Shown: positions 17,208 through 34,065 of the stretch, piece by piece
How the letters are laid out: each line of letters opens with the position of its first letter
Position numbering within the stretch: position 1 is the first letter of the stretch
Virus record (IMG/VR): IMGVR_UViG_3300042988_000311
Coordinates: 1-35,765 of that record
DNA from: a virus
Length of the DNA: 35,765 nucleotides
Direction: 5' to 3' (one strand)
Translations under genes and position numbers: made by a program
The notes under the pieces: model-generated
What the model was told of the DNA's origin: nothing
Seen by the model: the letters and a program-made list of their open reading frames with translations, nothing else
The model's database searches: none

Positions 17208-17236
17208 ATTGTACCACAATCAACTGATTGTGTCAA
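17208..17236 (-). promoter_or_regulatory. Promoter of the tRNA-Gly / omega / YkuK operon
   Basis: -35 TTGACA, spacer 17, -10 TACAAT. The spacer holds the dyad CAATCAGTTGATTG. It overlaps the 3' end of the peptidase gene. Confidence 0.84.
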
Positions 17237-18002
17237 TGAGTTTGTTTACCATTTTGTGTCTTTGGTCGTTGTTTTGTGCGCCTAGTACTACCAAAATGTA
17301 TCTATGATTGTCTCGCCCCGTAAAGAACATAGTAAGACAGCGACCTGCCGCATTAGTGAATCCTGTCTTTGCCGCTAGGATATCTAACTTGCCAGCGAAT
17401 ACGTTTGTATTTCTAGCAGTGATGTTCTTTACTTTGTTCTTTACTATTGCGGTAACGCTGACTACAGGTGACATTGCTGCCTGTTTGTAGACTTGATATC
17501 GTTGGGTGACTTCAATCAGTGTTCGAATATCGTAGACCGTTGATACGTTGCCTGCTGATAAGCCAGTAGCATCTTCATATCTGGTATCAGTCATACCTAG
17601 CGATAGTGCTCTTACGTTCATTAACGCAATAAAGTCAGTATATCCGTGACGACTGTTCTCAGCAAGTGTTCGCGCCGCTAAGTTATCGCTAGACACAAGA
17701 GTGATATTGACGAGTTCGCCACGACTGATCTTCATACCGCGACGAATGTAGTAACTATGCTCATTACCAGTAACTGTAAGTAGTTCATCGTGTGGAAGAT
17801 TTTGTTCGAGTGTGACTAGTGCCGTCATCAGCTTAGTAATACTGGCAGCCGGTCTGATCAATGTGATATTTTTATCTGCTAGTATCTTCTTTGCGTCAAT
17901 GTCCCAGATAGCATAAGCCGCTGGGGTTTGTACTGTTGGTTGACGCTTAGCGTAACTCAACGGCGTAAAGAGTACTAGCACTAATATGATTAGTGTTCTC
18001 AT
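17220..18002 (-). CDS. Secreted D-Ala-D-Ala peptidase, S11 family (PBP7-like, 260 aa)
   Basis: The N-terminus is a Sec signal peptide (hydrophobic LIILVLVLFTPLSYA, cleavage likely after A18). The three active-site motifs of serine DD-peptidases are all present: SxxK as SITK near 54-57, SxN as SSDN near 108, KTG as AKTGFT near 212. This is the core of the PBP7/DacA catalytic domain without the C-terminal membrane anchor of PBP5. It would cut D-Ala-D-Ala or D-Ala-mDAP bonds in the periplasm. It starts 5 nt after a late box CTAAATA without ribosome binding site, so it is a late, probably leaderless, gene; a role in lysis or cell-wall remodelling is likely. Confidence 0.92.
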   Translation of the reverse strand: MRTLIILVLVLFTPLSYAKRQPTVQTPAAYAIWDIDAKKILADKNITLIRPAASITKLMTALVTLEQNLPHDELLTVTGNEHSYYIRRGMKISRGELVNITLVSSDNLAARTLAENSRHGYTDFIALMNVRALSLGMTDTRYEDATGLSAGNVSTVYDIRTLIEVTQRYQVYKQAAMSPVVSVTAIVKNKVKNITARNTNVFAGKLDILAAKTGFTNAAGRCLTMFFTGRDNHRYILVVLGAQNNDQRHKMVNKLIDTIS

Positions 18003-18098: not shown

Positions 18099-18177
18099 TT
18101 CTTTAGGGAGTACACGGTGATTTTCACTAACAGAGCCAGTCTTATCGGCTGGGTGCTCCATGGACTCTCTAAAGAAA
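18099..18177 (-). ncRNA. Structured RNA between tRNA-Val and the tmRNA
   Basis: Closed by TTCTTTAG-GAGT pairing with ACTC-CTAAAGAA. An inner AGCCG/TGGCT stem has a 7-nt loop ATAAGAC, and GTGA/TCAC forms a small hairpin. It has no T-loop and no CCA, so not a normal tRNA; comparable in size and position to the stable RNAs C and D of the T4 tRNA cluster. Confidence 0.5.
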
Positions 18178-18191
18178 TCTCATAATATCCA

Positions 18192-18218
18192 TAAAATAGG
18201 GACCGAAGTCCCTATTAC
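18192..18218 (-). terminator. Terminator of the tmRNA transcript
   Basis: Minus-strand 9-bp stem AATAGGGAC / GTCCCTATT with a TTCG tetraloop, followed by a T run. Confidence 0.88.
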
Positions 18219-18221
18219 TAT

Positions 18222-18533
18222 TTTGGGTAATAAGGCATAGATGCCCCAGAGTTATGCCGCTAGGGCAAATACCTCATCGTTAGATGCGTTAGCATTTACT
18301 TTAGTTCGTCGTCTTCGACCGGGTTCCCCCAATCCTACGGCTTCCACATTGCCGAGCGCCACATCTTATCTACTACCCTGTCAATCGATTTCCTATAGTC
18401 ATCCCCGTTCAAAGTATACTCAAAGAATATACTTCAAACGAGGTATGGTGGAGATGCCCGGATTCGAACCGGGGTCTTGCCAGTATTTCCCAAGTGGGTT
18501 TACGCTGTTATTTCTCTATTGCTAGAGGAATGT
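18222..18533 (-). ncRNA. ssrA: Circularly permuted (two-piece) tmRNA
   Basis: In transcription order: an acceptor piece (18533-18446) with a CTCTA-GCAA-TAGAG hairpin, T-arm CCCGG-TTCGAAT-CCGGG, acceptor strand CATCTCC, discriminator A and CCA; then an intervening segment (18445-18407) with the hairpin AAGTATA/TATACTT; then a coding piece whose 5' end GGGGATG (18406-18400) pairs with CATCTCC. The tag frame (18293-18252) reads ANASNDEVFALAA then TAA, ending in the LAA degron typical of tmRNA tags. UUGACAG can pair with CUGGCAA as the helix below the tRNA-like domain. The acceptor-first order is that of two-piece tmRNAs of alphaproteobacteria and some cyanobacteria and betaproteobacteria, where the precursor loop is cut out. 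Exact ends are approximate. Confidence 0.88.
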
Positions 18534-18609
18534 TGGAGCGGGCGATCGGGTTCGGACCGACGACATCTTCCTTGGCAAGGAAGTGCTCTACCAACTGAGC
18601 TACGCCCGC
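18534..18609 (-). tRNA. tRNA-Gly(GCC)
   Basis: Acceptor GCGGGCG/CGCCCGC, loop TTGCCAA, discriminator T, CCA encoded. The T-loop is TCCGAAC, with C where position 55 is normally T. Confidence 0.92.
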
Positions 18610-19021: not shown

Positions 19022-19079
19022 TTAACTAACATCTATTATAGCTTACTCACTAATGCCAGTCAACTATAATGGATAAATC

Positions 19080-21639: not shown

Positions 21640-22170
21640 TTACGGTGCGAGAATTTTATCATACGTGTGTGTAATATTTTTGAATACTCTCTCGACTTTA
21701 TCTCTTTTTACCCATTCCCCATTTTCTAATGAAATATCGAAGGAGTTTAGAATTTTTTCTTCAGTGTGTTTTCTATTCAAAACGAATTCATACTTCAAAA
21801 CAGAAAAGTTTCTGTAAGGATCATAAGTTTGATAAGTTGTCAATCTTGCATCCAGATCAACAGTCATTCCAATTTTATAATGTTCTGGGAATGATGGATT
21901 CATTATCACGTAGACGAACCCAGATGGTTGAGAAATAATATTACCACCAATACTCGACAGGTACTTCATAACAGTTAACGCTGCTAATTTCCTCGTATAT
22001 CTATAATTTTTATTGGCAAGGTTAAACGATTTTTTGTTCAAAACATTCACGTATGCATGCATGTATGACAGTAAATGATCTTCGGAGATTTCGAATGGTC
22101 TTGATGGCAATTTACCTTCAAAAACCAACACATCTAAAATTCTCTGTTCTTGATCAGTGATAGATTTCAT
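21640..22170 (-). CDS. T5orf172 / GIY-YIG-like nuclease domain protein (176 aa)
   Basis: The C-terminal half carries the T5orf172 pattern, a GIY-YIG relative: GFVYVIMNPSFPEHYKIGMT near 91-110, then a DLDARLTTYQTYDPYRNF segment and a KHTEEKIL with the likely catalytic Glu near 147. The N-terminal 85 residues are helical. The start at 22170 has AAGGA. Such genes are often mobile endonucleases, which fits its place between tRNA-Tyr and a broken tRNA-Tyr copy. Confidence 0.78.
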   Translation of the reverse strand: MKSITDQEQRILDVLVFEGKLPSRPFEISEDHLLSYMHAYVNVLNKKSFNLANKNYRYTRKLAALTVMKYLSSIGGNIISQPSGFVYVIMNPSFPEHYKIGMTVDLDARLTTYQTYDPYRNFSVLKYEFVLNRKHTEEKILNSFDISLENGEWVKRDKVERVFKNITHTYDKILAP

Positions 22171-22221
22171 ATCATTCCTTACCTTTCTACATCTCAATAA
22201 CTCTTTTTATCGATAGGACTT

Positions 22222-22988: not shown

Positions 22989-23063
22989 TGGCGGTCTCAA
23001 GGGGTAACGATCCCCTTCTTTAGCAGTGACAGTGCTACGTGCGTCCATGAACACTTTGAGACC
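22989..23063 (-). tRNA. tRNA-Asp(GUC)
   Basis: Acceptor GGTCTCA/TGAGACC, loop CTGTCAC on TAGCA/TGCTA, discriminator G, CCA encoded. D-loop TTCATGGACG and T-loop ATCGTTA match those of tRNA-Gly(UCC), with bases 54 and 58 exchanged. The first base is shared with the stop codon of the HNH gene. Confidence 0.88.
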
Positions 23064-23491
23064 TATTCTAGCCTTGTCCCTCGGGGGACAAGGCCGTTTT
23101 GTATATCGATGCCTAATTTGGCTGCTTTTTTAATTCTATTTTTTCCTTCTTCGCTGGCATTTTTTACTCCCCAATTATGAGTTTGGGTGTGGCAGTTTGG
23201 ACAAATTACTCTTAAATTTTCCAATCTGTTGTCTCTATTATTGCCATTCATGTGATCGATTTGTAATGTTAGATGAATTCCATTGTGTATATTTGTTTGA
23301 CCACAAACCTCACAACATTCTCCTCTTATTGACAAGACGTATTTTCTTATCGAACGACTATAGCATGAATTTTCATTCAGATGTTGTTTGGTTGTATACT
23401 CACCCTGGCATTTGTTCGAACAATATTTGCCGGAACTTTGTGATGGATGATATTCGAATTCAACTTCACAATTTGTACATTTTGATTTCAT
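23063..23491 (-). CDS. HNH homing-type endonuclease (142 aa)
   Basis: N-terminal zinc finger (CTNCEVEF...YCSNKC) at 4-29, then a His-Asn-His nuclease core: CEVCGQTNIHNG near 60, LQIDHMNGNNRDNRLENLRVICPNCH near 76-100. The same layout as the HNH gene at 25028-25438. It has a late promoter (23511-23518) and GAGG before the ATG, like T4 freestanding homing genes. Its 3' end encodes a perfect 10-bp hairpin (GCCTTGTCCC, CCGA loop) that abuts tRNA-Asp. Mobility between tRNA clusters is the likely role. Confidence 0.9.
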   Translation of the reverse strand: MKSKCTNCEVEFEYHPSQSSGKYCSNKCQGEYTTKQHLNENSCYSRSIRKYVLSIRGECCEVCGQTNIHNGIHLTLQIDHMNGNNRDNRLENLRVICPNCHTQTHNWGVKNASEEGKNRIKKAAKLGIDIQNGLVPRGTRLE

Positions 23492-25027: not shown

Positions 25028-25438
25028 TTAGAATGATTTACCCTCGTGATACCGTTTCATTCTACTATGTCTTCCATTGCCCTTGTTCTTTGCTTTGTAA
25101 GTTGGTGTCTTGCTATGGCAATTCGGACAGAGTAAAGTTAGATTGCTCTCGTCATTGTTTGAAGAGTTACCATCGATGTGTTCAACTTCGAGTGTGATAG
25201 GATCTCCCAGCCATTCACTCAGATTACAACTAGAACAAGTCTTGTTAAATTTTTCAAGTAAGTATCGCCTTATGTGACCACTTAATCCCTTGCCCTCTAT
25301 TTCTTCCCCGCGCTGCCACTTGTCTATGAACTGTTTATACTTCAATTCAGCCTGACATTTGTTATCACAGAACTTACCTCTAGTGTTTTTTCTTAGAAGG
25401 TTTAACTTGTTACAGTTTATACAATGATATGTTTTCAT
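25028..25438 (-). CDS. HNH homing-type endonuclease (136 aa)
   Basis: Same architecture as 23063-23491: N-terminal finger CINCNKLN...FCDNKC at 6-28, then CSSCNLSEW near 68 and an EVEHIDGNSSNNDESNLTLLCPNCHSKTPTY nuclease core near 84-112. The basic C-terminus (KGNGRHSRMKRYHEG) is likely DNA-binding. A freestanding endonuclease between tRNA genes, bounded by two terminators; no late box seen. Confidence 0.9.
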   Translation of the reverse strand: MKTYHCINCNKLNLLRKNTRGKFCDNKCQAELKYKQFIDKWQRGEEIEGKGLSGHIRRYLLEKFNKTCSSCNLSEWLGDPITLEVEHIDGNSSNNDESNLTLLCPNCHSKTPTYKAKNKGNGRHSRMKRYHEGKSF

Positions 25439-33393: not shown

Positions 33394-34065
33394 TTATTTC
33401 CATAATAGGTCAAAGTTGCCATTCATAATCTTCTTCACTGAGGCTTCGTTCATTGACCGGTGATCTTGAACTCTATCATCTTGGAATCGATAGGTTCTTA
33501 TTTTATCGCCTCTCATACCAGAGCCGACTTGTTGCTTTCTATCTTTACTAATCTCACTATTGTAGCAGTAAGTTAGGATATTGTCAACCTTTTTTGTGAT
33601 ATCTTCCATAGCCAATTTTAGACTATTAGTTCTATCACGAGTTTGTGCTGTTGCTATTGTACCTGTTGGTATGTGGGTTATGCGACAACTGTTCTGGCAT
33701 TTATTTCTTTTCTGGCCGCCAGCACCAGTTCCCGAGTACCATTCAATCTTCAAATCTTCGTTACGAATATTGAACTGTGGTATAGCTGGGTCCACGATTG
33801 CGACAGTGACCGTGCTTGTATGTACACGACCTCTACGCTCAGTGGGAGGGACACGTTGAATTCTGTGTCCGCCGGCTTCTTGTTCTAAGCCGGATAAATC
33901 AGTACCTTGAACTTCTAAGTGAACTTCGCCAAGATACTCATTTATCTGACGAACTGTTCAGCCCTTGCGCTCAGCAAACTTCTTGTATGCTTGTACTAAA
34001 TCTCTTGTAAATAACTTGCTATCTTCACCGCCTTCTGCGGCTCGGACTTCTATGATTCGCTTCAT
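33394..34065 (-). CDS. Class I release factor lacking domain 1, with an in-frame UGA at codon 36
   Basis: The ATG at 34065 has AAAAGG and lies within the preceding gene. Codons 1-35 give RIIEVRAAEGGEDSKLF and KKFAERKG, the start of RF1 domain 2. Codon 36 is TGA (33958-33960). Reading continues in the same frame for 187 codons: GGHRIQRVPPTERRGR, with a PxT codon-recognition motif of RF1 (UAA/UAG) type, then GAGGQKRNK, the peptidyl hydrolysis motif, and a standard C-terminus. The UGA aligns with the Trp of RF1 AEARRWRVE. Without readthrough only 35 residues are made; the +1 frame closes quickly, so this is not an RF2-type frameshift. Suppression, regulated readthrough or a mutation are the options. 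Confidence 0.88.

Follow-up and report, generated by a model that had tools for sequence, protein, structure and literature searches.

A beta-type, circularly permuted tmRNA gene in the tRNA cluster of a large-phage contig

The tRNA genes of a 35,765-bp virus contig, IMGVR_UViG_3300042988_000311 (analysed over its whole length and called here the window), are accompanied on the minus strand, at about 18191-18533, by a sequence that raises the question of whether the phage carries a tmRNA of its own, of which type it is, and whether it would work. An earlier note had read it as a phage-encoded, circularly permuted (two-piece) tmRNA with the tag ANASNDEVFALAA, an idea to be given up if no two-piece model matched. 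ARAGORN called a permuted tmRNA (tmRNA*) at 18161-18538 with this same tag, and the Rfam model RF04321 (tmRNA_permuted) matched 18252-18506 end to end with 75.5 bits (E 6.2e-13, whole window), above its gathering score of 47 bits. The models that the note had proposed gave a more qualified answer. RF01850 (beta_tmRNA) matched 18192-18551, including the 3' terminator, with 61.8 bits (E 2e-18 at a lax threshold), which is the best match in its clan by cmscan but falls short of the gathering score of 84 bits, and RF01849 (alpha_tmRNA) reached 29.7 bits, under its gathering score of 50. Because of the difference between these two scores the window tmRNA is called beta-type, yet it is no formal member of RF01850.

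On the minus strand the order of the pieces is tRNA-Gly(gcc), acceptor piece, intervening sequence (IVS), coding piece and terminator (Table 1), the acceptor end thus preceding the coding piece in the gene, and a 7-bp acceptor stem, GGGGATG/CATCTCC, joins both. All seven pairs are formed, including the G3-U70 wobble of alanine identity, the CCA end is encoded, and the tag carries a hydrophobic C-terminal degron. The resume codon GCT is preceded by AAGTAAAT, and the tag frame runs at its end into the first strand of the hairpin GGCAT...ATGCC of the 3' part. Every piece listed in the earlier note (T-arm, CATCTCC, A and CCA, followed on the same strand by GGGGATG, tag frame and terminator) is present, as are the 7-bp pairing and the 39-nt hairpin between the pieces; the span that it had given, 18222-18533, ends just short of the terminator.

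Table 1. Features of the tmRNA gene and of other loci in the window
Feature	Position	Strand	Evidence or remark
Promoter-like TTGACT-17-TATAAT	19035-19063	-	Ahead of tRNA-Leu(tag), tRNA-Ser(act), tRNA-Gly(gcc) and tmRNA
tRNA-Gly(gcc)	18534-18609	-	Directly upstream of tmRNA; ARAGORN, Rfam
Acceptor piece	18446-18533	-	5' end approximate; RF04321 and RF01850 alignments; 57/61 nt same in L095
P2 strand	within 18446-18533	-	In acceptor piece; RF04321 and RF01850 alignments
T-arm	18457-18473	-	Within acceptor piece
Acceptor 3' strand CATCTCC	18450-18456	-	
A73	18449	-	
CCA	18446-18448	-	Encoded
IVS	18407-18445	-	39-nt hairpin, fold z -6.0; expected to be lost on maturation
Coding piece to tag stop	18252-18406	-	Includes D-arm analogue and P2 partner; RF04321 and RF01850 alignments
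Acceptor 5' strand GGGGATG	18400-18406	-	
PK1 stem region	18338-18356	-	In coding piece
Extra 7-bp hairpin, GATTGGG-GGAA-CCCGGTC	18317-18334	-	After PK1
Tag frame ANASNDEVFALAA-stop (GCT...TAA)	18252-18293	-	ARAGORN; silent codon changes vs L088
3' part	18191-18251	-	Aligned to RF01850 3' end
Terminator hairpin AATAGGGAC-UUCG-GTCCCTATT and T-rich tail	18191-18216	-	
D-alanyl-D-alanine carboxypeptidase-like (DacA-like) gene	17220-18002	-	In phage; PF00768, 131 bits
T5orf172 domain gene and two HNH-like ORFs	21640-22197, 23063-23491, 25028-25438	-	Among tRNA genes; HNH by eye
RF-1 domain protein	33394-33795	-	GGQ intact; PF00472, 71.7 bits

Relatives were gathered via searches with the RNA-binding and RF-1 proteins, which found many. 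RF04321 scored above its cut-off in 11 of the 50 records of a first set (four of the 11 recruited by a T-arm pattern, not by shared proteins) and in 7 of the 42 of a second, and the passing records include contigs of 95 to 364 kb. Three records, L094, L096 and L097, were recruited by the T-arm pattern; the tmRNA of L094 is alpha-type, and the other two were left out of further analysis. RF04321 matches of 10-20 bits in other relatives, mostly tRNA T-arms, were taken as chance.

A comparison of 21 permuted genes (that of the window, 19 others from phages and one from a Cupriavidus plasmid) rendered a complete 7-bp acceptor stem in all of them through compensatory changes, with five stems (GGGGATG/CATCTCC, GGGGGTG/CACCTCC, GGGCCTG/CAGGTCC, GGGGCTG/CAGCTCC and GGGCTGG/CCAGTCC) and a further one with a second G-U pair (GGGCTTG/CAGGTCC); G3-U70 is invariant (21/21). 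As for the peptide, the last nine tag residues, NDEVFALAA, are the same in the window and in L088, while seven of the nine codons differ, all silently (by eye). These substitution patterns show that the acceptor stem and the tag peptide are both under selection in the group, which supports a function of the tmRNA. The nearest tmRNA is that of L095, which a tree pairs with that of the window (support 0.998); the two have 80% identity over the mature parts and an unrelated IVS, and the 11-kb contig of L095 has no other gene in common with the window. A close relative, L003, starts inside the IVS and is syntenic with the window, tRNA-Val and the DacA-like gene following its coding piece (tag ANDEQFALAA) downstream in the same arrangement. 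The extra hairpin after PK1 is also seen, with an A-U to G-C double change, in L003, L090-L092, L095, L210-L213 and L215, and not in the remaining relatives looked at.

It is likely, therefore, that the circularly permuted tmRNA gene of beta type that this phage carries is functional, its activity being predicted. We infer that the tmRNA would be transcribed along with the tRNA cluster and its 39-nt IVS excised by host tRNA-processing enzymes (RNase P, RNase III/E and 3' exonucleases), after which the acceptor stem and P2 would keep the acceptor and coding pieces joined. Following the known identity rules, host AlaRS would charge the RNA with alanine via G3-U70, and with host SmpB it would enter ribosomes stalled at mRNA ends, which would switch to the tag frame at GCT, add ANASNDEVFALAA and stop at UAA, the C-terminal ALAA serving as a putative ClpXP-type degron. 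SmpB was found neither in the window nor in 19 other records searched, several being fragments, and host SmpB is therefore presumed; pattern scans of the contigs rendered no host tmRNA. The likely benefit would be that ribosomes are kept usable during infection, presumably by rescue of those on cleaved mRNA, and it would be shared with the numerous phage tRNAs, the two RNA ligases and the RF-1 domain protein described below.

The IVS is the part in which the window departs from its relatives. Its hairpin is strong (-26.8 kcal/mol for a 67-nt stretch, z -6.0, none of 200 shuffles as good), and the IVS is not conserved, only 16 of 39 aligned positions agreeing with L095. Before the 5' acceptor strand the IVS ends in UGAU or UAAU in 20 of 20 compared genes and in GAAC in the window. 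In the ten relatives folded, the acceptor stem continues into the IVS helix. In the window precursor, on the other hand, CAUACCUC at the CCA/IVS boundary is predicted to be able to pair with GGGGAUG, and an extended alternative hairpin, CAUACCUCGUUUGAAG / CUUUGAACGGGGAUG, which would hide GGGGATG and is absent from those ten relatives, is the predicted minimum; it is favoured by 3.7 kcal/mol locally and by 6.0 kcal/mol over the whole precursor (-116.4 vs -110.4), both being predictions on one sequence that take no account of T-loop/D-loop tertiary contacts.

The deviant IVS and the alternative fold may reflect decay, regulation or nothing. It could be that the window holds a decaying copy of a formerly working permuted tmRNA, poorly processed since the replaced IVS pairs with the 5' acceptor strand, and the junction unlike all 20 compared genes, the fold predicted to be favoured and a D-arm region that departs from the usual UUCGAC would agree with such a history. 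The gene has nevertheless kept its mature parts, the G3-U70 pair, the resume context and the tag intact, the D-arm variant is retained in L095, and the tertiary contacts ignored by the fold prediction weaken the case from the alternative hairpin, so that we regard decay as unlikely. The same hairpin could instead be a regulatory device peculiar to the window phage, in which the start of the IVS mimics the acceptor 3' strand and the precursor thereby stays inactive until cleavage of the hairpin. If true, maturation would need an endonuclease cut, for instance by an activity arising at some stage of infection. This reading draws on the predicted minimum lacking in the ten relatives folded, but that is a thermodynamic prediction on a single sequence, and no relative shares the hairpin; we consider it quite improbable. 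A role as a decoy, occupying SmpB or stalled ribosomes and so blocking host trans-translation, has a precedent in phage RNA with a tRNA-like domain that inhibits tmRNA: mycobacteriophage DS6A has a type of tmRNA that lacks the tag and blocks host trans-translation (PMC11915505, PMC4131195). A decoy would need neither a tag frame nor its restriction to silent changes relative to L088, both of which are seen here, and it is very improbable that the window tmRNA acts in this way.

The functional tmRNA that we favour is a further example, with an odd IVS detail in its precursor, of a kind already known. The statement in the earlier note that known phage tmRNAs (those of mycobacteriophages) are one-piece proved mistaken, as a two-piece tmRNA in OM43 phage Melnitz and 53 two-piece calls among the phage genomes available in early 2021 had already been reported (PMC9004378, 2022); 79 unique bacteriophage tmRNA sequences have been listed (PMC11915505). 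Melnitz has a complete permuted ssrA gene in its genome, as the window does, but there the tmRNA is alphaproteobacterial in kind and has a link to a glutamine riboswitch (PMC9004378), whereas that of the window is of beta type and forms part of a tRNA cluster. The Mycobacterium phage Bxz1 group and Bacillus phage G likewise have a phage-borne ssrA, but one-piece and not permuted. With the betaproteobacterial RNAs of RF01850/RF04321 the window shares piece order, acceptor stem, T-arm, P2, ALAA tag end and terminator; it differs from them in its longer tag (13 aa), the extra 7-bp hairpin after PK1, the deviant IVS, the lack of a visible promoter directly upstream and a score under the RF01850 cut-off.

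Beta-type permuted tmRNAs, mostly unannotated, were also found in cultured phages of Stenotrophomonas (DLP_6 and Marzo), Pseudomonas (PaMx31 and PA_L9), Xanthomonas (Rb1) and Synechococcus (BUCT-ZZ01). In these the IVS is of other length and keeps the conserved junction that the window lacks, the extra hairpin was not seen, and the tags are unlike that of the window. Pseudomonas, Stenotrophomonas and Xanthomonas, gammaproteobacteria in the classical sense, have a one-piece tmRNA of their own. The suggestion that the tmRNA hints at the host lineage had to be abandoned, since three one-piece-tmRNA hosts have phages with a permuted beta-type tmRNA; caution is thus required, tmRNA type being no guide to host lineage. 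Phages with their own tmRNA bring their own ribosome-rescue RNA, and the occurrence of the beta type in cultured phages that infect one-piece-tmRNA hosts, as well as within a group of large phages, offers phage/host pairs that would be a clean test of a phage tmRNA with a foreign SmpB, and of the use of the tag to the phage.

The window covers only part of a large phage genome, its tmRNA-bearing relatives reaching up to 364 kb. It contains about 22 tRNAs (18 from ARAGORN and four more from Rfam) and encodes an rIIA homologue, two RNA ligases, a DUF2828 / phage RNA-binding family protein and the RF-1 domain protein. The latter matches RF1 residues 191-314 only, without the stop-codon-recognition part, and is a possible second ribosome-rescue component; homologues occur in two tmRNA-bearing records, G040 and G042, as well as in many further viral contigs. 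Searches found no relatives of the DacA-like protein, and neither the tmRNA nor the first 25 kb of the window had a BLASTN match in INPHARED. The IMG/VR contig L129 is identical to the window over 5,135 bp.

The tRNA-Gly(gcc) and the tmRNA are probably on one transcript, although the promoter-like site ahead of them (Table 1) is of a kind that in the scan was no commoner than chance. By eye, no promoter was seen directly upstream of the acceptor piece in the window; L090, L091 and L093 have TATAAT boxes there, as in the RF01850 consensus, accompanied by TTGACT in L091 and L093 (by eye). Unusual tags were observed in L209, with 26 residues, and in L212-L214, where a C-terminal LMVA replaces LAA. 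In L211 an ORF of about 66 codons takes up almost the whole 220-nt tmRNA IVS; it has an AGGAAG site, and its stop codon lies inside the conserved UGAU junction. A small ORF is also present in the IVS of L003 (L003 1-150), both as seen by eye.
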